A stretch of 64,000 nt of DNA from Rhodococcus xishaensis (lineage in GTDB: Bacteria; Actinomycetota; Actinomycetes; Mycobacteriales; Mycobacteriaceae). The stretch spans positions 62,001 to 126,000 of the forward strand of contig NZ_RKLO01000002.1 of assembly GCF_004011825.1 (NCBI RefSeq), given 5' to 3'. Shown here piece after piece: positions 30,628 to 45,953 of this stretch. The notes beneath the pieces were generated by a model. The model was not told the origin of the DNA and did no database searches. It saw only the letters and a program-made list of their open reading frames with translations. Positions within the stretch are counted from its first letter, which is position 1. Every line of letters starts with the position of its first letter. A program made the translations under genes and the position numbers.

Positions 30628-33600
30628 CTACAGACCGCGATCGATCAGGTCGAGGATCTCCTCGCTGGTCGCGGCGCGAATCTTGTCGACCGCGTCGGCA
30701 TGTGCAGCGTCGACCGCACCCATCTCGGCCAGCAGGTTCTTCAACCGCTGTGCGATCTCCGACCGAGCATCGCCGTCATCGCCCAACTCGCCGATAGTTG
30801 CGTGGAGCCGGTCGACCTCGGCAAGGGCAACCGAAACCGGATCCGGAACGAGTTCGGCGCGCAGGAACTCTGCGATGGCACGTGGACTCGGGTGGTCGAA
30901 CACCACCGTGGGCGGCAGCCGCAGCCCGGTGGCGGCGTCGAGATGGTTGCGGAGGGCGACGGCGGCCAGCGAGTCGAAGCCGAGTTCCTTGAACGCCTGG
31001 TCGGGGTCGACAGAGTCCGAGGCGGTGTACCCGAGTATCGCGGCCGCTCCGGTTCGCACCAGATCGAGCATTAGGTGCCGCTGTTCGGGAATCGAACGGT
31101 CGGCAAGGCGCTCAGCCCAGTCTGCGGGCCCGTTCGAACCGGTCGCAATCGAATCTGATCCTGCGTGTGGACGCGACTGCCGGATCAAGCCACGCAAGGG
31201 GGCGGGAACATAGGGTGCGGCCGAACTCGAGTAGTCGAAACGTGCGGCCACCACGGCGGGTGCATCGGCAGTCAACGCGCTGTCGAAAAGGTCGAGCCCG
31301 TCGGCAGCGGTCAGCGGAATCATTCCGCTGCGGCGTGCTCGCACGAGATCGATCGCGCCGAGGTGGTCGGTCATCGCGCTCGGCGGCGCCCACATGCCCC
31401 ACGCAATCGAGTGTGCGGGCAGTCCGGCGGCGTGGCGGTGATGGGCCAGGGCGTCGAGGAACATGTTCGCGGCCGCGTAGTTCGCCTGCCCGGGCGCCCC
31501 GAGGATTCCGGCGAGGGACGAGAACATCACGAAGGTCTGCACCTCGCAGTTCGCGGTCAGCCGGTGCAGGTTCCAGGCCGCGTCGACCTTCGGCCGCAGC
31601 ACCGCATCGAGCCGCTCGGGGGTGAGCGAGGCCAGGGTGGCGTCGTCGATCACGCCGGCCACGTGGAACACCGCCGACAGTGGGTGCTCCGTTGGTATGC
31701 GGGCCAGCAGCCCGGCCACGGCCGACTCGTCCGAGGTGTCGCAGGCAGCGATGTCCACCTCGGCCCCCATATCGGTCAGTTCGCGGCGCAACTGGTCGCA
31801 CCCCTCGGCGTCGGGTCCGCGCCGACTGGTCAACAAGAGGTGCTGCGCCCCGTATTCGGTCAGCAAGTGGCGAGCCACCAAGGATCCCAAGGTGCCGGTG
31901 CCGCCGGTGACGAGAACGGTGCCGCGGGGATCGAACGGTGAAGCGGAACAGTCTCTCGTGTCCGGACCCCCACCCGGATCCATACGACGCAACCGAGGTG
32001 CAAGCAGCGTGCCATTCCGGGCTGCCAGTTGCGGTTCCCCGCTCGCCAACGCCGGGGCGATCACGGATTCGGCGTCCGATGCGTCGTCGAGGTCGATCAG
32101 CACGAATCGGTCCGGGTCCTCGTTTTGGGCCGAGCCCACCAGACCCCAGACGGCCGCGGCCGCAAGGTCTGTGCGATCGTCTCGTCCCGCCTCGTCGTCG
32201 GTGACCATCGCATTGTGGGTCACGATCACCAGTGGGCAGTCAGCGAAATGGTCGTCGCTCTGCCACTCCTGCAGCAGGCGCAGCGTCTGGGCGCACAGCT
32301 CGTGGGCCGCTTCCGGGCCGTCGTCGCCATCGGTGCCGCACCCGACCAGCACCGTCCAAGGTCGGCGGTCGTCTTCGCTCGGCGCGGATTTCACTGCGGT
32401 TCGTAGAGCAGCGATGTCGGGATACCTCGGGAAGGTCGAGCCCGTATCCTCCTTGCCCAACCCGTCAGCGCCCAAGACGACCATAGGGCCGACGCTTCGT
32501 TCGTCCGCTGCAACCTCGACCCCGATCCAGGCCAGCCGGTGCAGTCGCCGACCCGTCGAACTGCCGTCCGTGTCCGTCGCCCTCGGCACCACCCGTAGTG
32601 CTTCGACGGTCAATACCGGCTGGCCGTCGGGATCAGCTGCGCTGACGCGGTACCGCCCGTCCTCGCACGCTGTGAATTGAACCGATACCGACTGCGCTCC
32701 GACAGTGTGCAGACCGATTCCCGACCAGGTGCGCGGCCAGGCATCCCTTCCGAGCAGGGGCTCGAGCGCCGCCTGCAGCAGTACCGGATGAATGCCGAAG
32801 CCGTCCGTATCGGTACCTTCCTCGAGGCGCACCTCGGCGTCGGCCTCACCCGAGAACTGTTGCGGTACACCAGTGGCGGGGCTGACGACGTCGTCGATCG
32901 TCGCCGATGCGTTCCGAACCCAGCCGTCCGGGTCGTCGGCCTCGCTCAGGTTCGACGAGATGGTGACGGTGCGACCGCCGTCGTTCTCGGTCTGCGACAC
33001 GAGCACCCGAAGGGATGCCAGCCCCGACGGCGGCAAGACCAGTGGGTGGTGCAAGGTCAGCTCGTCGATGCGGTCGAGACCGACGCGATGGGCCGCGTGC
33101 AATGCGAGTTCGACCAGTACCGTCGGCAACACTGTGTGCGTGTCATCGGGCGCCGGCGGGCCGCCGTCCTCTACTGGCGGTTCCACGAGCCATGGATTCC
33201 GCTGGAGTGACAGCTGTCCGGTGAACAGCGTCGCGTCGTCGTCGAGCCTCACGGCCGCACCGAGCAGCGGATGGTCTGCCGGGCCGAGGCCGAGTTCGAC
33301 CGGGTCGCCGGTACCCAGTGTGGGCGATGAGGGCCAGAACGAACGACGTTGGAATGCGTAGGTCGGCAGCTCCACCCGGCGCCGACCGGGCAGCACCTGA
33401 TCCCAGTCGATGTTCAGGCCGTGCACATAGGCGGCGGCTACCGCTCGCATGATTCCTTGCGGCTCGCCTGCGCGTCCGGGCAAGGTAGCGATGGCGTTCG
33501 GGATGGTCTCGGCGGCGTGGGCGGCCAGGGTCGCGCCGGGACCGACCTCGACGCACCGGGTGACGCCGAGTTCGTCGAGGGCACGAATGCCGTCATGGAA

Positions 33601-36600
33601 GCGCACCGGTTGCCGGATGTGCTGAGTCCAATAGTCCGGGGACATAAGCTCATCGGCACTGGCAAGGCGGCCGGTGATGTTGGAGACGATTGGAATCGTC
33701 GGTGACTGCGGCGTCAACGTGGACACAACGTTGGTGAACCGTTCGAGGATCGGTTCCATCAGGGTGGAATGGAACGCCCGCTCTACCCGCAGGCTGGTGG
33801 TCGTCATCCCGGCGTCGGACAACTCGGCAGCGATGGCTTGCACGTCGCGTTCGCCGCCGGCGAGAACCACAGATTCGGAGCCATTGACTGCCGCGAGATC
33901 GACCCGGCCTGCGATCCGTGCCGAGACGTCGTCTGCACGGGCCCGTACGGCAACCATCCGACCCGGCTCCGTCGATTCCATCAACCGTCCGCGTTCACCA
34001 ACCAAGGCGGCGGCATCGGACAAGCTGAAGACCCCGGCGACGTGCGCCGCGGTGATCTCTCCTATGGAGTGACCGATCAGGTAGTCGGGAGTGATACCCC
34101 AATCCCGAAGCAGCCGATAGAGCGCTACCTCGACGGCGAACAGCGCCGGTTGGGTGTACTCGGTGTGGTCGAGTCTCACGCCCGAGTCCCCAGACTCCTC
34201 GGTGTCGCGAGCGTCTCCAGCATCTTCGGTTTCCTCGGGTTCGCCCCAGAGTACCTGCTGCACTGGGGTTTCCACGTGCTCGTCGAGTGCCGAGCAGACC
34301 TCGTCCAAGGCTTGGGCGAACACCGGGTAGGCGTCGTAGAGGCCGCGGCCCATCCCGATCCGCTGCGCGCCTTGGCCGGTGAACATCAGCGCCGTCTTCC
34401 CTCGCGTGCTCGTGCCTGCCACAACGTTGCCGCCCGGTCGGCCCTCGGCGATGCGGGCCAGGCCGTCACGGAGGTCCGCCAGGGTTTCTCCGATCACCGC
34501 AGCGCGATGGGCGAAATCGGATCGGGTGGTCGCCAGCGAGTACGCGAGGTCGGCGAGGTCCGGGAGGTTGGCCTCGCTCTGTCCGGAGGACTCGTCGGTG
34601 TTCAGAAACTCGGCCAGCCGTGCGGCCTGTGCGCGCAGCGCGTCGGCGGTCTTTCCGGAGATCACCCAGACCAGCGGCCCGGCCGACGGTGACTGCACCG
34701 TCGGCGCTGCCGAGGGCGGCGAGATCTGCGGTGTCGCAGGGGCAGATGATTGCTCGAGGATCATGTGCGCGTTGGTGCCGCTGATCCCGAACGACGACAC
34801 ACCCGCGCGACGGGGCCGCCCCGTCTCCGGCCACGGAACTGGTTCCGCGAGTAGCGAGACCTCGCCCGCCGTCCAATCGACGTGCCGGGTCGGAGCGTCG
34901 CCGTGCAGGCTCGGCGGCAGCACCCCGTGCCGCATCGCCATCACCATCTTGATCACTCCGGCCACCCCGGCCGCGGCCTGGGCGTGGCCGATGTTCGACT
35001 TGACCGAACCGAGCCAGAGCGGCCGTCCCTGCCGGTCCTGTCCATAGGAGGACAGCAGCGCCTGCGCCTCGATCGGGTCGCCGAGCGTAGTGCCCGTGCC
35101 GTGCGCCTCCACTGCGTCGATGTCGACGGGGCCGAGCCCGGCGTCGGCCAGCGCTTGGCGGATCACCCTCTCCTGGGACGGCCCGTTCGGGGCGGTCAAC
35201 CCGTTGGAAGCCCCGTCTTGATTGACTGCCGATCCACGGATGATCGCCAACACCTGGTGACCGTTGCGTTCCGCGTCGCTGAGGCGCTCGAGCACCACCA
35301 TGCCCGAGCCTTCGCTGAGTCCGGTGCCGTCTGCTCGGTCGGAGAACGGCTTGCACCGCCCGTCTGCAGCAAGCCCTCGTTGACGACTGAACTCGACCAG
35401 TACACCGGGCGTGGCCATCACGGTTGCGCCACCGGCCAACGCGAGGGAGCATTCGCCCTCGCGCAAAGCCCGCGCCGCCAGATGCATGGCCACCAGCGAT
35501 GACGAGCAGGCCGTGTCGACGGTGACTGCGGGACCGGTGAAGCCGAGCGAATAGGAGATCCGGCCGGACGCCACGCTGTTGCTGGTCCCGGTCATCAGAT
35601 AGCCCTCGGCGTCGACACTTCGCTCGTTCATCAACTGGAAGCCGTAATCGCCGCCCATCAGTCCGACGTACACCCCGGTGTCGGCGAGGTCGGGAGAATA
35701 CGGCCGGATCCCAGCGTGTTCCAACGCTTCCCAAGCGGTCTCGAGGAGCAGTCGGTGCTGCGGGTCCATCGCGACCGCTTCACGCGGGCTGATGCCGAAG
35801 AATGCGGCGTCGAATTCGTCTGCGTCGTAGAGGAATCCACCCTCACTCATGTATGTCGTCCCGTTGTGGTCCGGGTCGGGGTGATAAACCTCGTCGAGAT
35901 CCCAGCCACGGTTGTCGGGGTACGCGCCCACGGCATCGCGGCCGTCGTGGACGAGTCGCCACAGATCTTCTGGGCGGTACACCTTGCCCGGATACCTGCA
36001 GGCCATCCCTACGATCGCGATCGGGTCGGAGTCCCTGCGAGAAGGTGCCGGCCGGGTTGGCTGTGGAGTCGCGTCGTCACCGAGCAGGCGAGCCAAGAGC
36101 TCGTCGGTGAGCGCGTCTGCGGTGGGATGGTCGAAGACCACCGTTGCGGCCAGCCTTACCCCGGTGGCGTTCGCCAGCTGGTTCCGCAGTTGTACCGCCG
36201 TCAACGAATCGAAGCCGAGTTGCTTGAAGGCTCGTTCCGGGTCGATCGCCTCCTTTCCGTCGTGGCCGAGCACAGCGGCCACGTGGGTGGTGACGATGTC
36301 GAGCACTCGGGCGTGACGCGCTCCGGGTTCGAGCGCCCGCAGCTCGTCGGCGAGACCGGTAGGTGACTCCGCGACAGCGGCGCGGCGGCGAATGCCGAGG
36401 ACTCGGCGCAGGATCGGCGGTGACGACTCGCTGTCGGATCGAACCGAACGCATCGAGAGCCGGATCGGCACGATCAGTGGACGGTTCGCTGCAAGTGCCG
36501 CATCGAACAAGACGAACCCCGCCTCAGGGCTGATGGTGTCGATACCCGTGCGCTGCAACCGGTCGAGATCGGTTGCATTCAGATGTGAGGTCATTCCACT

Positions 36601-39600
36601 CGGGCGGTCCCACAACCCCCAGGCCATTGAAATCGCCGGCAGCCCGCGGACACGGCGGTGCTGGGCGAGCGTGTCGAGGAAGACGTTCGCAGCCGCATAG
36701 TTGGCCTGGCCGGCGCCCCCGAGCACACCAGCCGCCGAGGAAAACAGCACGAACGCCGACAGGTCTCGGTCTCGTGTGAGTTCGTGCAGGTGCCAGGCGC
36801 CGTCGACCTTCGGGCGGAGGACGGCGTGCAACTGGTCCCTACTCAACGTGGCAGCAATACCGTCATCGAGGACCCCTGCGGCGTGAATCACGCCGGACAG
36901 GTCGGGAAGGCCGGACAGCAGAGCGGCCACCGCAGCGCGGTCTGCCACGTCACAGGCGGCAGTGGTGACCTCTGCTCCGGAATCGGCGAATACTGCACCT
37001 ACTTCGGCCGCGCTTTCGGCGTCGAGTGCCCGTCGCCCGGTCAACACCAGACGGCGTACCCCGTACCTCTCCACGAGGTGACGGGCGATCAATCGCCCGA
37101 TGGTTCCTGTGCCACCGGTGATCAAGACCGTGCCGTGCGGGCCGAAGGGGGTCGCCTCCGAAGACGCGGCTCTGGGCTGGGTCATTGCGGTGAGCGTGGG
37201 AGCCAGCAGTACCCCGTCTCGGATCGCCAGTTGAGGTTCGTTGCCGGCCAACGCCATTGCCAACAGTGCAGGATCGGGGAGCCCACCGGCCTGCCCATCC
37301 AGATCCACCAGGGTAATGCGGTCGGGATGCTCGTTCTGCAGTGCCCCGATCAGTCCCCAGACCGGCGCGGCGGACACGTCGTCGATCTGATCGTCGTCGC
37401 GGACCACCATCGCGAGCCGGGTCGTGACCAGCAGCCGGGTTTCGGCCAAGCGCTCATCGCGGAGCCAGGACTGCGCCAGCCGCAACGTCGCCTCCGCGGC
37501 GGCGTGCGCCCGAGCAGGTGTGTCCGGTTCATCGCCGGGCTCGGCGGACAGCCAGAGCACACGACCCTCGTGATCACCGCCGGCGAGCGCCTCCTCGAGT
37601 GGTATCAGATCGGCCGCGCCCGTGGTTCCTGCCCCGATAGGAATCCACTCCACGCGGCAGAGCCTGTCGCCTACCTCGGCGGGCTGCACGTCGGTGTCCC
37701 CGAGTGGCCGCAGCGCCAAAGACTCCGCGGTCAATACCGGCTCACCCGCCGCGTCGTACGCGGACACCCGATACCGCTCGGGTCCGGTCGGGGTGATGAG
37801 CACGCGCAAAGCGGTTGCGCCCACTGCGTGCAGCTGCACCTTGTCCCAGCTGAACGGCAAACGGATGTTGCGTGTGCGGGCCTCCGCCGCTCCGAACGCG
37901 ATCGCGTGCAGCGCCGCGTCGAGCACCGCCGGATGGATCCCGTACCCCGCGACCGTCGCGGCCGGATCGTCGCCGCCCAGCCGTACCTCGGCGTAGAGCT
38001 CGTCACCGCGGCGCCAGGCTGCACGCAAGCCACGGAAGGTCGGGCCGTATCCGTAGCCGGCCTCGTCGAGCAGCTCATACAGCCCGCGGGCGTCGATCGG
38101 TGCGGCATCGGGCGGCGGCCACTGCTGGTCGAGGGTGGTGGCGGTGTTCGCGGCCGCTGTCAGTGAGCCGGTGGCATGCCGGGTCCACGGAGTTTCCGGC
38201 GGGACCCCGGCCGGTCGAGAATGCACTGCGACCGTGAGATCGCCGGTATCGGCGTCGGCGAGCACGCTCACCTGCACGGCGACCTCGTCCTCGGCGGGAA
38301 TCATGAGGGGCGACTCGATCGCGAGGTCTTCGAGCCTGCCGCACCCCACGCGGTTCCCGGCATGCAGTGCGAGCTCGACGAAGGCGGTTCCGGGCAGAAG
38401 CACGGTGCCGTTCACCGCGTGGTCGCCAAGCCACGGAAGACGTTGTTGCGACAACAGGCCGGTGAACACCACGCCCCGGCTGTCGCCGAGCTCCACCGAG
38501 GCGGCGAGCATCGGGTGTCCGCCCGTTTCCATGCCCGCCGAGGCGATATCTCCCTGTGGTGCAGGACTGTCCAGCCAAAAGCGACGGTGTTGGAAGGCGT
38601 AGGTAGGCAAGTCCACCCACGGCTGTCGGTCATCGTTCCGAGCCCATCGGACCCGGTCCCACTCGATCCGTGCTCCCGATACCTGCGCCTCGGCGAGTGC
38701 GGCGGTGAACTGTCGCAGGCCCGCCCGGTCGCGTCGGATGGTGCCGAGGGCTCGTCCGGCGATCCCCGCCGAATCGAGGGTTTCCTGCAACGGCACAGTC
38801 AGGACGGGGTGACTGCTCGACTCTATGAACAATCGATACCCGTCCACGGCAAGCGTTCTCGTAGCCTGCTCGAACCTGACCGGACGGCGGAGGTTCCGGT
38901 ACCAGTAGTCCGCGTTCAGGTTGGTGGTGTCCAACGCGCCACCCGTCACCGTCGAGTAGAACGGAATGCGCGACCGCCGCGGCGTGATCGAGGAAAGGGC
39001 GTCGAGAATCGGTTCGCGCAGAACGGAGACGTCAGCGCAGTGTGAGGCGTACTCGACGGCGATTCGCCTGGCCTGGACGCCGTCGGCCTGCAGCTGCGCG
39101 ACCAGGTCATCGAGAGCGTCGACGGGACCGGACAGCACCGTCGCCGATGGCCCGTTGACGACGGCCACCTCTATGGCGCCTTCCCAAGGCTGGATCTTTT
39201 CCCGCGCAACGTCTTCCGGAAGTGCCACCGAGGCCATCCCGCCACCGCGCCGTGCCGACGCGGCGATCACTTTGCTGCGTGCCGCGACGACCAGTGCCGC
39301 ATCCGCGAGGCTCAGCGCGCCGGCGACGTATGCGGCGGCGATCTCTCCCTGCGAGTGTCCGACCACGGCGGCCGGTTCGACGCCGTTTGAGCGCCATAGT
39401 TGTGTCAGGCCGACCATCACAGCGAACAGCGCCGGTTGCACTACGTCGATCCGGTCCAGTGAGTTCGGATCGCGGTCCCGGAGCACTTCGAGCAGCGAGA
39501 AGTTCGTGTACGGAGCCAGGGCGTCGGAGCATTCGAGCACACTGTCGGCGAACTCGGGCGACGAATCCAGCAGTTCGGCGGCCATCCCCACCCACTGCGA

Positions 39601-41322
39601 ACCCTGGCCCGGGAAGACGAACACCGGTCGGTCGCCGGATTCCACGGCCACCCCGGTGACCACGTCGGCGCTGGGTGAGCCGCGGCTGAGCGCGTCGAGG
39701 CCGGCCAACAGGGCCTCGGGCTCCGAGCCGATCACAGCAGCACGGTGATCGAAGGTGGCGCGGGCATCAAGCAGCGACCCGGCCACCGTCGCGGGCGGGA
39801 GTTCGGGGCGGTCGGCGACGTAGGCGCGCAGGCGATCAGCTTGGGCCCGCAGCGCGGTCTCGGTTTGGGCCGAAACGAACCACGCTACGGCTTCGCTTGA
39901 GGGAGAATCTGATTCGCGAGGTGGCGGCTCGGTCGGCGGGGATTGTTCCAGAATGACGTGAGCGTTGGTTCCGCTGATACCGAACGACGAGACGGCCGCG
40001 CGACGGGACCGATCGGCCGCCGGCCAATCCCGATTCTCGGTGAGCAGGGACACCGATCCGGAGGACCAGTCGACGTGCGGCGTCGGTTGGTCGACGTGCA
40101 GTGTCTTCGGGAGGACGCCATGCTGCATCGCCATGACCATCTTGATCACCCCGGCGACGCCGGCCGCCGCCTGGGTATGGCCGAGGTTCGACTTCACCGA
40201 GCCGAGCCATAGCGGTCGGTCGGGGAGGTGATCGCGGCCGTAGGTAGCCAGCAGGGCCGACGCCTCGATCGGATCGCCCAGCTTGGTGCCGGTGCCGTGC
40301 GCCTCGACCGCGTCGACGTCGGCCGGGCCGAGCCCGGCGTCGGCCAGCGCCTGCCGAATCACGCGCTCCTGCGCCTGCTTGTTCGGAGCGGTCAGGCCGT
40401 TGCTGGCGCCGTCCTGGTTCACCGCTCCGCCCCGGATCACGGCGAGTATTCGGCGGCCGTGGCGTTGCGCGTCGGAGAGTCGTTCCAACGCGATCATCCC
40501 CGCGCCCTCGCCCCAGGCTGTACCGTCAGCGGCGGCGGAGAATGCTTTGCAACGCCCGTCAAGGGCCAGCCCCCGCTGGCGACTGAACTCGACGAACACA
40601 GCCGGAGTGGACATGACCGTAGCCCCGCCCGCCAGTGCCAGTTCACACTCACCGGCGCGCAGCGCCTGCATCGCGAGGTGGATAGACACCAGCGACGACG
40701 AACATGCGGTGTCGACCGTGATCGCAGGTCCCGACAGGCCGAAGCTGTAGGCCACTCGCCCCGAGGCCACGCTCATTGCGTTGCCGGTGATGAAGTAGCC
40801 CTCGAGGTCTTCGGGCGGCTGCCCGCCGACTCGCGCTGCGTAGTCGATACCGGACAGCCCCGTGAACACTCCGACCTGCCTTCCGTGTACTGACCGCGGA
40901 TCGATGCCGGCGTGTTCCAAAGTCTCCCAGCTAGTTTCGAGAAGGAGTCGCTGCTGCGGATCCATCGCGAGCGCCTCGCGCGGCGAAATACCGAAGACCT
41001 CCGGATCGAACCCCGCCGGGTCGTCGAGAAAGCTGCCCTTGACGGTGTAGGTCTTGCCGGCCTGCTCGGCCTTCGGGTCGTAGAGGTCCGTGAGTCCCCA
41101 GCCTCGGTCGTCAGGGAATTCGGCGACGGTTTCCAACCCCGATTCCACCAAGGCCCACAAGTCCTGCGGCGATCGGACACCGCCAGGGAACCGGCAGCCC
41201 ATCCCAACTACAGCGATCGGTTCGTGGCCCAGGCCTTCGGCCTCGCGAAGCTCCTCCCGCGCCTGATACAGATCTGCGGTCACCCGCTTGAGATAATCTA
41301 GGAGCTTCGCCTGATCGGCCAT
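30628..41322 (-). CDS. Bimodular type I polyketide synthase
   Basis: A 3564-residue modular PKS. Domains by approximate residue: N-terminal docking coiled coil 1-33; KS1 35-460 (active Cys near 206 in DTACSSS); AT1 560-860 (GHSQGE, YASH: methylmalonyl-CoA predicted); DH1 930-1195 (GDHAVNGTVLLPG, intact His near 967); KR1 1395-1575 (LDD, B type); ACP1 near 1705 (LGFDSL); KS2 1763-2185 (Cys near 1937); AT2 2309-2600 (GHSIGE, AFHS: malonyl-CoA predicted); DH2 from 2683, catalytic His motif lost; KR2 3133-3310 (IDD, B type); ACP2 near 3449; C-terminal docking helices 3490-3564. No ER, loading module or thioesterase. The ATG at 41322 has GGAG 8 bases upstream. Partners must lie outside the window. 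Product unknown. Confidence 0.95.
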   Translation of the reverse strand: MADQAKLLDYLKRVTADLYQAREELREAEGLGHEPIAVVGMGCRFPGGVRSPQDLWALVESGLETVAEFPDDRGWGLTDLYDPKAEQAGKTYTVKGSFLDDPAGFDPEVFGISPREALAMDPQQRLLLETSWETLEHAGIDPRSVHGRQVGVFTGLSGIDYAARVGGQPPEDLEGYFITGNAMSVASGRVAYSFGLSGPAITVDTACSSSLVSIHLAMQALRAGECELALAGGATVMSTPAVFVEFSRQRGLALDGRCKAFSAAADGTAWGEGAGMIALERLSDAQRHGRRILAVIRGGAVNQDGASNGLTAPNKQAQERVIRQALADAGLGPADVDAVEAHGTGTKLGDPIEASALLATYGRDHLPDRPLWLGSVKSNLGHTQAAAGVAGVIKMVMAMQHGVLPKTLHVDQPTPHVDWSSGSVSLLTENRDWPAADRSRRAAVSSFGISGTNAHVILEQSPPTEPPPRESDSPSSEAVAWFVSAQTETALRAQADRLRAYVADRPELPPATVAGSLLDARATFDHRAAVIGSEPEALLAGLDALSRGSPSADVVTGVAVESGDRPVFVFPGQGSQWVGMAAELLDSSPEFADSVLECSDALAPYTNFSLLEVLRDRDPNSLDRIDVVQPALFAVMVGLTQLWRSNGVEPAAVVGHSQGEIAAAYVAGALSLADAALVVAARSKVIAASARRGGGMASVALPEDVAREKIQPWEGAIEVAVVNGPSATVLSGPVDALDDLVAQLQADGVQARRIAVEYASHCADVSVLREPILDALSSITPRRSRIPFYSTVTGGALDTTNLNADYWYRNLRRPVRFEQATRTLAVDGYRLFIESSSHPVLTVPLQETLDSAGIAGRALGTIRRDRAGLRQFTAALAEAQVSGARIEWDRVRWARNDDRQPWVDLPTYAFQHRRFWLDSPAPQGDIASAGMETGGHPMLAASVELGDSRGVVFTGLLSQQRLPWLGDHAVNGTVLLPGTAFVELALHAGNRVGCGRLEDLAIESPLMIPAEDEVAVQVSVLADADTGDLTVAVHSRPAGVPPETPWTRHATGSLTAAANTATTLDQQWPPPDAAPIDARGLYELLDEAGYGYGPTFRGLRAAWRRGDELYAEVRLGGDDPAATVAGYGIHPAVLDAALHAIAFGAAEARTRNIRLPFSWDKVQLHAVGATALRVLITPTGPERYRVSAYDAAGEPVLTAESLALRPLGDTDVQPAEVGDRLCRVEWIPIGAGTTGAADLIPLEEALAGGDHEGRVLWLSAEPGDEPDTPARAHAAAEATLRLAQSWLRDERLAETRLLVTTRLAMVVRDDDQIDDVSAAPVWGLIGALQNEHPDRITLVDLDGQAGGLPDPALLAMALAGNEPQLAIRDGVLLAPTLTAMTQPRAASSEATPFGPHGTVLITGGTGTIGRLIARHLVERYGVRRLVLTGRRALDAESAAEVGAVFADSGAEVTTAACDVADRAAVAALLSGLPDLSGVIHAAGVLDDGIAATLSRDQLHAVLRPKVDGAWHLHELTRDRDLSAFVLFSSAAGVLGGAGQANYAAANVFLDTLAQHRRVRGLPAISMAWGLWDRPSGMTSHLNATDLDRLQRTGIDTISPEAGFVLFDAALAANRPLIVPIRLSMRSVRSDSESSPPILRRVLGIRRRAAVAESPTGLADELRALEPGARHARVLDIVTTHVAAVLGHDGKEAIDPERAFKQLGFDSLTAVQLRNQLANATGVRLAATVVFDHPTADALTDELLARLLGDDATPQPTRPAPSRRDSDPIAIVGMACRYPGKVYRPEDLWRLVHDGRDAVGAYPDNRGWDLDEVYHPDPDHNGTTYMSEGGFLYDADEFDAAFFGISPREAVAMDPQHRLLLETAWEALEHAGIRPYSPDLADTGVYVGLMGGDYGFQLMNERSVDAEGYLMTGTSNSVASGRISYSLGFTGPAVTVDTACSSSLVAMHLAARALREGECSLALAGGATVMATPGVLVEFSRQRGLAADGRCKPFSDRADGTGLSEGSGMVVLERLSDAERNGHQVLAIIRGSAVNQDGASNGLTAPNGPSQERVIRQALADAGLGPVDIDAVEAHGTGTTLGDPIEAQALLSSYGQDRQGRPLWLGSVKSNIGHAQAAAGVAGVIKMVMAMRHGVLPPSLHGDAPTRHVDWTAGEVSLLAEPVPWPETGRPRRAGVSSFGISGTNAHMILEQSSAPATPQISPPSAAPTVQSPSAGPLVWVISGKTADALRAQAARLAEFLNTDESSGQSEANLPDLADLAYSLATTRSDFAHRAAVIGETLADLRDGLARIAEGRPGGNVVAGTSTRGKTALMFTGQGAQRIGMGRGLYDAYPVFAQALDEVCSALDEHVETPVQQVLWGEPEETEDAGDARDTEESGDSGVRLDHTEYTQPALFAVEVALYRLLRDWGITPDYLIGHSIGEITAAHVAGVFSLSDAAALVGERGRLMESTEPGRMVAVRARADDVSARIAGRVDLAAVNGSESVVLAGGERDVQAIAAELSDAGMTTTSLRVERAFHSTLMEPILERFTNVVSTLTPQSPTIPIVSNITGRLASADELMSPDYWTQHIRQPVRFHDGIRALDELGVTRCVEVGPGATLAAHAAETIPNAIATLPGRAGEPQGIMRAVAAAYVHGLNIDWDQVLPGRRRVELPTYAFQRRSFWPSSPTLGTGDPVELGLGPADHPLLGAAVRLDDDATLFTGQLSLQRNPWLVEPPVEDGGPPAPDDTHTVLPTVLVELALHAAHRVGLDRIDELTLHHPLVLPPSGLASLRVLVSQTENDGGRTVTISSNLSEADDPDGWVRNASATIDDVVSPATGVPQQFSGEADAEVRLEEGTDTDGFGIHPVLLQAALEPLLGRDAWPRTWSGIGLHTVGAQSVSVQFTACEDGRYRVSAADPDGQPVLTVEALRVVPRATDTDGSSTGRRLHRLAWIGVEVAADERSVGPMVVLGADGLGKEDTGSTFPRYPDIAALRTAVKSAPSEDDRRPWTVLVGCGTDGDDGPEAAHELCAQTLRLLQEWQSDDHFADCPLVIVTHNAMVTDDEAGRDDRTDLAAAAVWGLVGSAQNEDPDRFVLIDLDDASDAESVIAPALASGEPQLAARNGTLLAPRLRRMDPGGGPDTRDCSASPFDPRGTVLVTGGTGTLGSLVARHLLTEYGAQHLLLTSRRGPDAEGCDQLRRELTDMGAEVDIAACDTSDESAVAGLLARIPTEHPLSAVFHVAGVIDDATLASLTPERLDAVLRPKVDAAWNLHRLTANCEVQTFVMFSSLAGILGAPGQANYAAANMFLDALAHHRHAAGLPAHSIAWGMWAPPSAMTDHLGAIDLVRARRSGMIPLTAADGLDLFDSALTADAPAVVAARFDYSSSAAPYVPAPLRGLIRQSRPHAGSDSIATGSNGPADWAERLADRSIPEQRHLMLDLVRTGAAAILGYTASDSVDPDQAFKELGFDSLAAVALRNHLDAATGLRLPPTVVFDHPSPRAIAEFLRAELVPDPVSVALAEVDRLHATIGELGDDGDARSEIAQRLKNLLAEMGAVDAAHADAVDKIRAATSEEILDLIDRGL

Positions 41323-41618
41323 GAGAAAGCTCCAATCCGAACACAGCCCCAACCAGGGAGCAGCCGCGCCAAATGCGGAAACCTGATTGTATCCGCGAAC
41401 ACGGCGGGGGTGCAGAGCCGCAGGTCGGCGCCGCGGAGTGGCACACCTCGGTGGCAGCGAGGGCTATGCAGTCGGACAAGTCGCCTGGTGACGCCCGCCG
41501 TGTGACTGCGCTTGGCTGAATCGCCAAACCTCCCGGTCGCCCCTAGCGGATCGGCGCGAACTGATGCAGGCTGAAGAGGGAGTGTGGAGATTCTGCTCGG
41601 CACATTTGGGGGTTAGCC
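41323..41618. promoter_or_regulatory. Divergent promoter region, PKS / SnoaL-like
   Basis: A 296-bp gap between two divergent genes. On the minus strand TACAAT (41396-41401) is a good -10 for the PKS, about 75 bases before its start codon; the matching -35 is weak. No clear -10 for the SnoaL-like gene and no long palindrome were seen. Confidence 0.45.
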
Positions 41619-42041
41619 ATGGCTACCGATCACAAATCCACGTCGAAATACCTGCTCGAACTCTGGGGTGACAACACCCCGCACAAGCCGGACGACTACC
41701 TGGCCGCGAACTACGTCAACCATCAGTTACCCGATGTTTCGGGCGGTACGTCGACGAAGTCGCTGGCTGAGTGGCACGCCCTGCTCGACGAGTTCCACAA
41801 GTCCTTCTCGGACGTGGACCTCGAAGTCATGGGCCAGGTTCAGGAGGGAGACTTCGTTTGCTCCTTCTTTCGGTTGACAGGCAAGCAGACCGATCTCTTC
41901 CAGGGCATCGCTGCTACTGGCAATACGAGTTCATGGACCGGCGTGCATACGGATCGCTACGAAGACGGCAAGCTCGTCGAGAGCTGGGTCAATTGGGACA
42001 AGTACAGCTTCCTGGAAGGCCTCGGACTCGCACCCAACTGA
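41619..42041 (+). CDS. SnoaL-like polyketide cyclase family protein
   Basis: A 140-residue protein of the SnoaL/NTF2-like fold. The N-terminal helix pair, the FHKSFSDVDLEVMGQVQEGD segment and the WTGVHTDRYEDGKLVESW strand pattern match SnoaL ester-cyclase relatives; catalytic residues were not assigned. Such proteins cyclise or hydrolyse polyketide intermediates but many act elsewhere. The ATG follows GGGGG at five bases. It is transcribed away from the PKS across a shared 296-bp region, so joint function with the PKS is plausible but unproven. Confidence 0.75.
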   Translation: MATDHKSTSKYLLELWGDNTPHKPDDYLAANYVNHQLPDVSGGTSTKSLAEWHALLDEFHKSFSDVDLEVMGQVQEGDFVCSFFRLTGKQTDLFQGIAATGNTSSWTGVHTDRYEDGKLVESWVNWDKYSFLEGLGLAPN

Positions 42042-43053: not shown

Positions 43054-43560
43054 CTAGTTCGCCACGAAGCTGACCGGCGTCTGCGTGTCCTGGGTGCGGT
43101 CGGGGGAGCCGTGCGCGGCGACGGTGTAGATCGAGCAGCTGGTCTCGAGGCAGTTGGACTCTCCCTGGATCGCGACGACGTCGAGGGTGGTGGTCCAGTT
43201 GCCGTCGACGATGTCGCCGGACCGGAGCCACTCGCTGGCCATCCAGACACTCGCGTCGGTCGGGGAGAACTTGTCGTCCGGGACCAGGCCGACGTAGATG
43301 CCGAATCCTTCGCCGGAGAACCCTGTTCCGGAGACCGTGAGCGTCTCGCCGTCGGCGGCGATGTCCGTGGACTTCGAGAGGGTGACCTGCGGCCCGGCGG
43401 GCGTGGGGTCGCCGGTGCCGGGGTCGTCGGTGATCGGGGCGCCGGAACCGAAGTTGCCCAGCGAGCCGAAGGGGCTGGCCTGCGCTGCGCCGGCGCTGAG
43501 CGGCAGCGTGCAGGCGATGGCGGCAACTGTCACAACTGCGGACTTGATGGATGTGCGCAT
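43054..43560 (-). CDS. Secreted single-domain neocarzinostatin-like protein
   Basis: A 168-residue exported protein. A signal peptide covers about residues 1-28 (cleavage after AQA), a Gly/Pro-rich linker about 30-57, and one Ig-like domain 58-166. The domain opens with LSKSTDI...GETLTVSGTGFSG and closes with a Cys137-Cys142 pair and AAHGSPDRTQDTQTPVSF, a layout like the neocarzinostatin apoprotein family. Tyr89, Tyr145 and His150 recur in all domains of the neighbouring protein. No anchor, so it should be released. The start ATG follows AAGAAGGAAC. An IdeR-like box sits 43 bases upstream. A secreted iron-related binding protein is inferred; ligand unknown. Confidence 0.8.
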   Translation of the reverse strand: MRTSIKSAVVTVAAIACTLPLSAGAAQASPFGSLGNFGSGAPITDDPGTGDPTPAGPQVTLSKSTDIAADGETLTVSGTGFSGEGFGIYVGLVPDDKFSPTDASVWMASEWLRSGDIVDGNWTTTLDVVAIQGESNCLETSCSIYTVAAHGSPDRTQDTQTPVSFVAN

Positions 43561-43602
43561 GTTCCTTCTTTCTGGTTTGGGGTTACCGCGTCGCGGCACA
43601 TG

Positions 43603-43621
43603 GTAGGTAAGCCTAGCCTTA
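43603..43621 (-). promoter_or_regulatory. IdeR/DtxR-type iron box
   Basis: Read on the minus strand, TAAGGCTAGGCTTACCTAC matches 17 of 19 positions of TWAGGTWAGSCTWACCTWA. A -35 TTGACA lies at 43628-43633 directly upstream, so a repressor bound here would cover the promoter spacer and -10. Repression in iron-rich and expression in iron-poor conditions is expected. Confidence 0.85.
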
Positions 43622-43651
43622 GCTCAATGTCAAGTTAATGGTCGGAGTCGC

Positions 43652-43674
43652 GGGATATCCAGCTGGGATATCCC
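43652..43674. repeat. Inverted repeat GGGATATCC
   Basis: GGGATATCC and GGGATATCCC flank AGCT, giving a nearly perfect 23-bp palindrome. It lies 14 bp beyond the stop of the four-domain gene and 19 bp above the -35 of the single-domain gene. It lacks a T-run, so it may be an operator rather than a terminator. Confidence 0.5.
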
Positions 43675-43687
43675 TCATCTGAGGCGC

Positions 43688-45847
43688 TCAGGCGCGGCGG
43701 CGCAGGGCGAGGGTGGCCGCTACCGCGAAGCCGGCTCCGATGACGCAGCCGATGAGCAACGGAACGATCCAGGCGGTGGTGCGGGTGACCTCATCGGAGA
43801 GATTGCGGATCGTCGAAGAGACCGCCTCCTCCGCGTTCGAGAAGGAGCCGCCATCGTTCGAGCCGTCCTCGGAGGCCGTCAGAGCTGCGGCTTCCGCCTT
43901 GTCCGCGTTGGGTGCGTTGGGATCGTCGCCGAAGCTGACCGGCGTCTGTGTGTCTTGGCTGCGGTCACTCGAACCGTGTGCGGCGATCGTGTAGATCGAA
44001 CACGCGTTCTTGGTGCAGTCGGAGTCACCCTTGACGGCTCTGACCTCCATGGTGGTCGACCACGCACCGTTGTCGATCCTCGCCGGTGTGATGTACGCCG
44101 CGGTGATCCAGGCGCTGGCGTCGGTGGTCGAGAACTTGTTCTCCTGGATGAGACCGACATAGATGCCGGGCGGAGCGCCCGAGAAGCCTGTGCCCGAGAT
44201 GGTTATCGTCTCCCCCTCGATCTCCAGCCCCTTCGCCTTGGAGAGCCTTACCGCCACCGTCTTGTCCGCGTCGGGATCGCTGGCAGCGGTCTGCGGCGGC
44301 GGCTCGGTGACCGTGCCCGGTGCGACGCCGCCGACGAAGCTCACCGGCGTCTTACTGTCCTGGCTACGGTCCGAAGAGCCGTGAGCCATGACGGTGTAGA
44401 TCGAGCAGGCGTTCTCGAGGCAGTCGAAGCTGCCCTGTACGGCGATCAGTTCCATCGAGATGGACCAGTTGCCGCCGGATATGTTCTCCGGCTTGATGAA
44501 GGCGGAGGTCATCCACGCCGATGCGTCCGTGTACGAGAAGACGTTGTCCTGGACCAGGCCGACGTAGATGCCCGGTTCTGCGCCAGAGAATCCGGAACCG
44601 GAGATCGTGACCGTCTCGCCGGACGGGGTGATGTCGCGGGACTTCGAGAGCGAGACCGAGAGGCCGCTGTTCGCGGTGAACGTCTCGCCCGGTGCGGCAT
44701 CTGCGGCGCCGTCACCTGTTTCCCCCCCGTCGTCGCCGGACGTTGCGTCGCCATCGTCCGTGACCGGGGGCGCGGTGCCGACAAAGCTGATTTGGGTCAC
44801 GGTGTCCTGACTTCGGTCGGACGAACCGTGAGCCGCAAGGGTGTAGATGGCGCACGCGTTGCTGACGCAGTCTCCGCCCGAGAACGCACCGACGGCGTTG
44901 AGTGTCGTCGAGAAGGAACCGCCGGGAATGTCGTCGGACTTGATGAACTGTGCGTCGTGGAAGACCGACGCGTCGGTGAACGAGTATCGGTCCATCTGGG
45001 CGATACCGATGTAGATGCCCGGCCCGGTGGTCGAAAAACCACTGCCGTTGACGGTGATATCTTCTCCGCCCGCGTCGAGCCCGCTCGTCTTGCTCGCGCT
45101 GATCTGCGGTCCGCTCCCGGTAGCGGGCGGTGTGGTGGTTGGCTCGGGTTCCGTGGTGGTTGGCTCGGGTTCCGTGGTGGTTGGCTCGGGTTCCGTGGTG
45201 GTTGGCTCGGGTTCCGTGGTGGTTGGCTCGGGTTCCGTGGTGGTTGGCTCGGGTTCCGTGGTGGTGGTTGGCGGGGGTGTTGTGGTGGTGGTGGTCGGGG
45301 GTGCCGCCACTGCGAAGGAAACCGGGGTCTTGGTGTCCTGGGTGCGGTCGGATGAGCCATGGGCGGCGATGGTGTAGATCGAGCAGGCGTTCTGGGTGCA
45401 GTCCGAGTCGCCGCTGACGGCCTCGACGTCTATTGAGGTGGACCAGGTTCCGGCCGTGATCAGGCTCGGTCGCACGAACTCGGCCGAGATCCAGGCGTCG
45501 GCGTTGGTGGTGGAGAACTTGTCGTCTTGGACGAGACCGACGTAGATGCCAGGGTCGGCGCCCGAGAACCCGGTCCCGGAGACGGTGACGGTTTCGCCCT
45601 CGGCCCGCAGACCTGTTGTCTTGCTGACGGTGGTGGCCGGAGTGCTGGCGGCGACTGCGAGGGCAGCGGTGCGGTCCTCGGAGGCGGTGCGGTCTTCGGA
45701 GGCGGTGCGGTGCTCGGAGGCGGTGCTGTCCTCAGAAACGGCGCTGTCGGTGGAGACGTCGGGGTCGGCCACGGCGATGCTCACTGGCGTCGTCAACGCC
45801 AAGGTGATTGCCGTGGTCACGATGGCAGCCCTGCTGAACGTGCGCAT
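43688..45847 (-). CDS. Membrane-anchored protein, four neocarzinostatin-like domains
   Basis: A 719-residue cell-surface protein. Signal peptide about 1-28; short S-E-D-R-T-A repeats at 43-61; four Ig-like domains at 73-179, 249-355, 397-504 and 533-639; Thr/Pro/Glu-rich stalk with six EPEPTTT repeats at 183-240; acidic linkers; one membrane helix 690-715 with a basic end. Each domain repeats GIYVGL or GIYIGI, a Cys-x4-Cys pair (for example CTQNAC) and AHGSSDR with an invariant His. The domain layout resembles neocarzinostatin-type chromoproteins. Two iron boxes lie upstream of ATG 45847, which follows GAAGAAGGAAG. It likely pairs with the secreted single-domain protein. Ligand unknown; heme or siderophore is a guess from regulation. 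Confidence 0.8.
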   Translation of the reverse strand: MRTFSRAAIVTTAITLALTTPVSIAVADPDVSTDSAVSEDSTASEHRTASEDRTASEDRTAALAVAASTPATTVSKTTGLRAEGETVTVSGTGFSGADPGIYVGLVQDDKFSTTNADAWISAEFVRPSLITAGTWSTSIDVEAVSGDSDCTQNACSIYTIAAHGSSDRTQDTKTPVSFAVAAPPTTTTTTPPPTTTTEPEPTTTEPEPTTTEPEPTTTEPEPTTTEPEPTTTEPEPTTTPPATGSGPQISASKTSGLDAGGEDITVNGSGFSTTGPGIYIGIAQMDRYSFTDASVFHDAQFIKSDDIPGGSFSTTLNAVGAFSGGDCVSNACAIYTLAAHGSSDRSQDTVTQISFVGTAPPVTDDGDATSGDDGGETGDGAADAAPGETFTANSGLSVSLSKSRDITPSGETVTISGSGFSGAEPGIYVGLVQDNVFSYTDASAWMTSAFIKPENISGGNWSISMELIAVQGSFDCLENACSIYTVMAHGSSDRSQDSKTPVSFVGGVAPGTVTEPPPQTAASDPDADKTVAVRLSKAKGLEIEGETITISGTGFSGAPPGIYVGLIQENKFSTTDASAWITAAYITPARIDNGAWSTTMEVRAVKGDSDCTKNACSIYTIAAHGSSDRSQDTQTPVSFGDDPNAPNADKAEAAALTASEDGSNDGGSFSNAEEAVSSTIRNLSDEVTRTTAWIVPLLIGCVIGAGFAVAATLALRRRA
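45132..45257. repeat. 21-bp tandem repeat, six units
   Basis: Six copies of GTGGTGGTTGGCTCGGGTTCC, read on the minus strand as EPEPTTT. They form the stalk between domains 1 and 2 of the anchored protein. Copy number is likely to vary between strains. Confidence 0.95.
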
Positions 45848-45914
45848 CTTCCTTCTTCCTGGTCTTCCTGGTCGCAGCCGCACTCGCGGCACATAAGGGC
45901 GAACAAAACCGAGA

Positions 45915-45953
45915 TGAGGGTAGCCTATGCAAAGGAAGGGGAGCCTAAGCTAC
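45915..45953 (-). promoter_or_regulatory. Two candidate IdeR/DtxR iron boxes
   Basis: On the minus strand, TTTGCATAGGCTACCCTCA (45915-45933) and GTAGCTTAGGCTCCCCTTC (45935-45953) each match 14 of 19 positions of TWAGGTWAGSCTWACCTWA. They lie 68-106 bases before the start of the four-domain protein. Side-by-side weak boxes are a known arrangement for DtxR-family dimers. Confidence 0.6.

Follow-up and report, generated by a model that had tools for sequence, protein, structure and literature searches.

Two IdeR-box-bearing genes for neocarzinostatin-superfamily surface proteins in Rhodococcus xishaensis, a candidate heme-capture pair

We analysed a 64,000-nucleotide stretch of the Rhodococcus xishaensis genome (assembly GCF_004011825.1, contig NZ_RKLO01000002.1, positions 62,001 to 126,000; hereafter the window). 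Positions 43054 to 45953 of the window hold two genes whose products, a single-domain protein with a signal peptide and a four-domain protein with a C-terminal anchor, are made of the same domain of about 107 residues. A box of the IdeR/DtxR type lies upstream of each gene, and profile-level homology places the domain in the wider neocarzinostatin superfamily. Relatives of these genes were found beside the genes of the heme importer HmuTUV. We propose that the two proteins form a heme-capture pair that is induced by iron starvation under the control of IdeR and feeds HmuTUV, much as HtaA/HtaB do with a different domain, a proposal that we consider an even call. The features of the locus are as follows.

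43054..43560, minus strand: gene for the secreted protein with a single domain, 168 amino acids (aa); open reading frame (ORF) with ATG at 43560, purine-rich upstream stretch and stop
43477..43560, minus strand: signal peptide of the secreted protein, ending AQA/S (by eye)
43066..43386, minus strand: sole neocarzinostatin-like domain of the secreted protein (alignments A1 and A2)
43603..43621, no strand assigned: IdeR/DtxR-type box, 15/19, 42 bp before the ATG of the single-domain gene; best match in the window, with boxes in relatives
43688..45847, minus strand: gene for the anchored protein with four domains, 719 aa; its ORF has an ATG, a stop and a purine-rich stretch upstream
45767..45847, minus strand: signal peptide of the four-domain protein, ending VA/D (by eye)
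45314..45634, minus strand: domain 1 of the four-domain protein (alignments)
45110..45313, minus strand: linker of the four-domain protein, rich in T, P and E, with TTEPEP repeats (sequence)
44783..45109, minus strand: domain 2 (alignments)
44336..44662, minus strand: domain 3 (alignments)
43931..44257, minus strand: domain 4 (alignments)
43691..43774, minus strand: C-terminal hydrophobic stretch and RRR tail of the four-domain protein, predicted membrane anchor (sequence; similar tails in relatives)
45915..45933, no strand assigned: IdeR/DtxR-type box, 14/19, 67 bp before the ATG of the four-domain gene; second-best match in the window, with boxes in relatives
45935..45953, no strand assigned: second, weaker box, 13/19, in this intergenic region on the side of the tRNA-synthetase gene

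Both genes of the pair are real. The boxes upstream of them are the two best matches in the whole 64 kb to a 19-bp palindrome that we take to be the IdeR/DtxR consensus and that was used for scoring. In 20 first-order Markov simulations, the mean number of chance matches per 64 kb was 0.0 at a score of at least 15 and 0.15 at a score of at least 14. When the window and the loci of relatives were scored together, boxes of at least 14/19 were seen at 35 of 51 ORFs that carry the domain (fragments among them), compared with 20 of 617 other ORFs. By their position, these 20 either have an intergenic region in common with a domain-bearing gene or lie in hmu loci. A 14/19 box is also present in the window genome at the heme oxygenase-HmuTUV operon, where it precedes the called start of the first ORF by 7 bp, and boxes of at least 14/19 stand ahead of hmuO in five relatives (G086, G049, G183, G011 and G003). 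The initial annotation, made from the sequence of the window, had reported IdeR-like boxes at both genes. This claim stood up, and at the level of a conserved motif there is good support for putative IdeR-type control of the pair.

The same annotation had described a secreted and an anchored protein made of one repeated domain, which the alignments bear out. The five domains fill 109 aligned columns, 34 of which are invariant, and the domains of the four-domain protein are 46–61% identical to the single-domain copy. Searching the 3.7 Mb window genome with the single-domain protein returned these five domains and one marginal match (E 0.076). We rejected the latter as a domain copy, its two ORFs not being domain-like. 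For the wider family we collected 189 domain matches from the window and 42 relative loci, of which 167 are full-length and distinct and come from 39 sources. Residues C80, C85, G21, G63 and R98 are present in all 167, and D97 (166/167) and Y32 (162/167) are nearly invariant. The Cys-x4-Cys pair noted previously is therefore kept throughout; the His that had been called invariant, H93, falls short of this in the wider family, being present in 151 of the 167 domains, with Phe in 12 of the remaining 16. The same His, at Cys+8, is found in 10/10 aligned single-domain relatives. In the comparison of a 23-member profile with the PDB, Tyr32-Val-Gly aligned to neocarzinostatin residues 33–35. In a separate PDB comparison, that of a single-domain group linked to hmuT (see below), the His of this group aligned to residue 101 in a weak alignment of 6.6 bits. 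The conserved loop may border the ligand cleft.

The window proteins have no match to the Pfam neocarzinostatin family (PF00960) at E ≤ 1, and the best stretch of the window genome reaches 17.7 bits against a curated cut-off of 25. Relatives do exceed this cut-off, and PF00960 was matched by 11 of 23 diverse single domains (E ≤ 0.01). A profile built from the alignment of these 23 members (A4) retrieved neocarzinostatin chains first from the PDB (E 2.2e-5, positions 2–89 of 111), with further matches to macromomycin (0.011), kedarcidin (0.044) and ThiX (0.0077). The single-domain window protein searched alone against the PDB gave no neocarzinostatin match. When A4 was compared with the hmuT-linked single-domain group, hhalign gave 97.4% with an E of 1e-11 and placed His over His; the profile of that group in turn matched macromomycin (E 8.7e-6) and ThiX (E 2.5e-42) in the PDB. 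The neocarzinostatin-type domain of the initial annotation is thus upheld at the level of the superfamily and not at that of PF00960. It had proposed a profile search against Pfam Neocarzinostatin, HtaA and NEAT: the diverse domains match the first of these as stated, and the window proteins match none of the three. Its view that the domain is neither HtaA nor NEAT agrees with our Pfam scans, in which neither HtaA (PF04213) nor NEAT was matched by the window proteins or the diverse domains; a search of the window genome for HtaA likewise returned no match. Against the enediyne chromoprotein model NF040680, the single-domain protein scored 9.4 bits where 86 are required, and the four-domain protein was unmatched.

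Heme is the candidate ligand because of the gene neighbourhoods of the relatives and the missing HtaA. The window genome has a row of genes for heme oxygenase (PF01126, 4.7e-60), a substrate-binding protein (SBP; PF01497), a FecCD permease (PF01032) and an HmuV-type ATPase, the last being 53% identical to that of a relative (5.7e-72). In four close species (G178, G240, G424 and G494) of genus g3, which appears to be Corynebacterium-like, the four-domain gene ends 187–191 bp from hmuV, and a single-domain superfamily lipoprotein (by eye) is encoded on the other side of hmuT. The SBP of g3 retrieved PDB entry 5AZ3 first (4.3e-47), presumably HmuT of C. glutamicum, and rows 6–10 of its matches are named heme or hemin binders. 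In 11 sampled genomes from g3, g4, g5, g29 and g33, homologous single-domain genes lie 419–979 bp from hmuT, as the distance between the two matches. Genes of this group stand beside hmuT in G097, G424 and G494, and in G465 and G498 (g3) they are side by side with a multi-domain gene. In other PF00960-positive genomes they are located elsewhere, as in G021, G091, G173 and G286, where the distance to hmuT exceeds 500 kb; placement covered part of the 50 such genomes. In a sample of 301 genomes from the family, HmuT was present in all 28 domain-bearing genomes and in 170 of the 273 others. Because the single-domain genes adjacent to hmuT or hmuO match ThiX, a function connected with heme is suggested for ThiX as well.

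Single-domain superfamily genes beside hmuT or hmuO were recorded at L100:8357-9007, L095:8762-9310, L060:15098-15724, L070:8593-9705 and L096:8353-8826. At L070:8593-9705 (G017) there are two tandem copies, divergent from hmuTUV.

To compare the domain with HtaA we used the full set of 242 genomes of genus g3 and took a match of at least 100 bits as strong. Strong domain matches were found in 16 genomes, weak ones within open frames of 877–1013 aa in four HtaA-positive genomes (G262, G430, G472 and G489), and HtaA in 116. HtaA is absent from 14 of the 16 strong-domain genomes and from 112 of the 226 others (Fisher p 0.0035; p-values for this genus overstate the difference, the genomes being related). 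The 16 genomes form seven clusters at 80% domain identity, which points to few independent events. Of 17 sampled HmuT-positive g3 genomes, 13 have HtaA, including G262 with its weak domain match, and the other four are exactly those with strong domain matches. Across the 301-genome sample, HmuT was matched in 198 genomes and HtaA in 74.

If the pair captures heme, it may work as follows. When iron is short, IdeR would release both promoters. The four-domain protein would be displayed at the cell surface, and its single-domain partner would be secreted. In each domain heme would occupy the cleft in which neocarzinostatin carries its chromophore, and its iron might be bound by the Cys+8 His or by a conserved Tyr. 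HmuT would then receive the heme, HmuUV would import it, and the heme oxygenase of the hmu operon would open it. Many sampled actinobacteria have HmuT without an HtaA match. Heme capture by the pair would explain the position of the relatives beside hmuT, and it would mean that the neocarzinostatin fold has a function in nature other than carrying antibiotics. More broadly, and tentatively, we suggest that this fold may join NEAT and HtaA as a third domain for heme capture in Gram-positive bacteria. It would be widespread in actinobacteria with mycolic acids and, in some lineages, replace HtaA as the receptor and HtaB as the relay. On this view, porphyrin-binding surface proteins would be the older family, from which the antibiotic carriers branched off. 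No account of neocarzinostatin-family domains in heme uptake was found in the open-licence literature that we searched. A neocarzinostatin-like domain is named in CwpG of Actinoplanes (passages of PMC13251363).

Besides the relatedness of the g3 genomes, a number of observations weigh against heme capture by the pair. About 370 kb separate the pair from hmuT in the window genome, and a 20-kb region around hmuT, in this genome as in G003, G011, G049 and G183, holds neither kind of domain. Direct linkage of a multi-domain gene to hmuV is confined to one lineage. The hmuT-linked genes form a subfamily of their own, and the closest relative of this subfamily with a solved structure is ThiX, a subunit of a respiratory supercomplex. 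HmuT is common without the domain, and three of the 14 genomes of the window genus (G004, G006 and G011) have kept HmuT and lack the domain. The alternation with HtaA is incomplete as well. With the four weak matches counted, HtaA is present in 6/20 against 110/222 of the g3 genomes (p 0.11, not significant); among the exceptions, G361 has a weak HtaA match, and in G486 a domain protein is encoded about 10 kb from an HtaA-HmuTUV cluster on the same contig. We looked for exclusion across the family and did not find it: 11 of the 28 domain-bearing genomes also match HtaA, strongly in G262 and with single matches of 30.8–47.2 bits, all above the Pfam cut-off, in the other ten. HtaA is also matched in 5 of the 11 genomes with hmuT-linked genes (G041, G068, G086, G098 and G102); the match in G098 and hmuT are about 2.7 kb apart. 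Finally, iron control alone fits siderophore capture equally.

Siderophore capture is the main rival, and we consider it unlikely. The pair would bind ferric siderophores, the cell's own or foreign ones, for delivery to an ABC importer of siderophores, and the linkage to hmu in other genera would reflect other paralogs. This is consistent with the IdeR-type boxes, with the small-molecule chromophore carried by neocarzinostatin (passages of PMC2694159) and with the surroundings of the pair in the window genus, which are yaaA and a tRNA-synthetase gene and not hmu. It is countered by the type of iron importer found beside superfamily members in the loci that were placed or tagged, which is HmuT; the tags covered hmu only, siderophore importers being unsearched. 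A further rival is a ThiX-like role, in which the proteins would be iron-regulated envelope or respiratory-assembly factors that build or protect heme enzymes at the cell surface and capture no nutrient. This role is favoured by the strong match of the hmuT-linked group to ThiX, a lipoprotein that forms part of the bcc-aa3 supercomplex (passages of PMC8795186). We nevertheless regard it as improbable, since the window proteins belong to a different subfamily, secreted and multi-domain forms fit capture better, and the partial exclusion with HtaA in g3 would be unexpected.

We give about the same low probability to a TIG/Ig-like surface protein that acts as an adhesin or structural component and binds no small ligand. 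Pfam TIG does match the four-domain protein (E 8.3e-10). On single domains, however, TIG matched 3/23 and PF00960 11/23, and we rejected a TIG identity as a generic Ig-like match. The near-invariant polar loop (His, DR[ST]QD) and the C-x4-C of the 167 domains also resemble a binding site, which the adhesin reading does not call for. Least probable is the sequestration of antibiotics or polyketides, with the pair as a self-protecting carrier, in the style of neocarzinostatin, for the product of an adjacent polyketide synthase (PKS) or for foreign drugs. Membership of the neocarzinostatin superfamily favours it, as do the two genes that adjoin the pair, one for a 3574-aa two-module type I PKS (30628-41352, minus strand) and one for a SnoaL-like protein (41619-42041, plus strand). 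The boxes are of the iron type, however, and a domain scan of the PKS gave a docking domain followed by two modules of KS-AT-DH-KR-ACP, an architecture that we take to be unlike that of an enediyne PKS. Neither the PKS nor the SnoaL-like gene has a clustering counterpart among the genes of 30 relative loci of 3–20 kb each. We therefore rejected an enediyne or polyketide carrier, and the polyketide/enediyne side of the initial annotation finds no support. The PKS and SnoaL-like genes are probably an insertion specific to the strain or species.

Several known systems come close to the pair. With the neocarzinostatin-type apoproteins (PF00960; neocarzinostatin, macromomycin, C-1027, actinoxanthin and kedarcidin) the domain shares profile homology over the stretch given above and a C-x4-C near the end. 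Unlike them, it lacks the first disulfide (the aligned Cys are missing), occurs in multi-domain and anchored forms, and has IdeR-type boxes and no enediyne cluster. It also has an AHGSxDRSQD loop, the His of which, in the related single-domain group, is the one weakly aligned to neocarzinostatin residue 101. The free binder and multi-domain anchored receptor of the Isd/NEAT system follow the same logic as the window pair, whose proteins, in contrast, have no NEAT match in Pfam. NEAT hemophores and receptors of this system are named in passages of PMC8027190. The nearest published work that we found is on DtHtaA of Dietzia (passages of PMC8027190). Like DtHtaA and HtaA/HtaB-HmuTUV of Corynebacterium, the pair and its relatives combine an anchored multi-domain protein with a smaller partner, iron-type control, co-occurrence with HmuTUV and, in g3, a largely alternative presence; they differ in that the window pair has no PF04213 match and does not adjoin hmuTUV in its genome. 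The pair may thus work like HtaA/HtaB or Isd with a different domain. ThiX (7QHM chain M, from the C. glutamicum supercomplex) is a close homolog of the hmuT-linked single-domain relatives and has its His in the same place, whereas the window domains are only remotely related to it. The name ThiX comes from a link to thiamine, and its soluble domain is not resolved in the structure, according to passages of PMC8795186.

The domain is present in 11 of 14 genomes of the window genus, the window genome included, and in 28 of the 301 family genomes, from 7 of 31 genera. Among relatives, a four-domain anchored protein is often paired with a partner of one to three domains, which is sometimes anchored too. 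A YaaA gene and a tRNA-synthetase gene are close to the pair in much of two genera, that of the window and g37; the synthetase gene is proS by eye, with Pfam class II core, anticodon and editing domains. Owing to this constant place we rejected a mobile element; the four-domain protein has one marginal plasmid match (32.8% identity), and the single domain has no phage match. In L046 (G008), a 79%-complete assembly, the pair is broken into several frames, by sequence errors or decay. HtaA was likewise unmatched in two of the genomes of the genus that lack the domain, G006 and G011; heme may enter these cells freely or through some other receptor.

Superfamily members also occur away from hmuT. 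Four genomes (G077, G093, G214 and G223) have PF00960 matches, yet no HmuT match at E 1e-30; their members perhaps have another role. Six large genomes of genus g38 (G091, G154, G252, G280, G286 and G316) have three superfamily matches each, which are clustered and not adjacent to hmuT.

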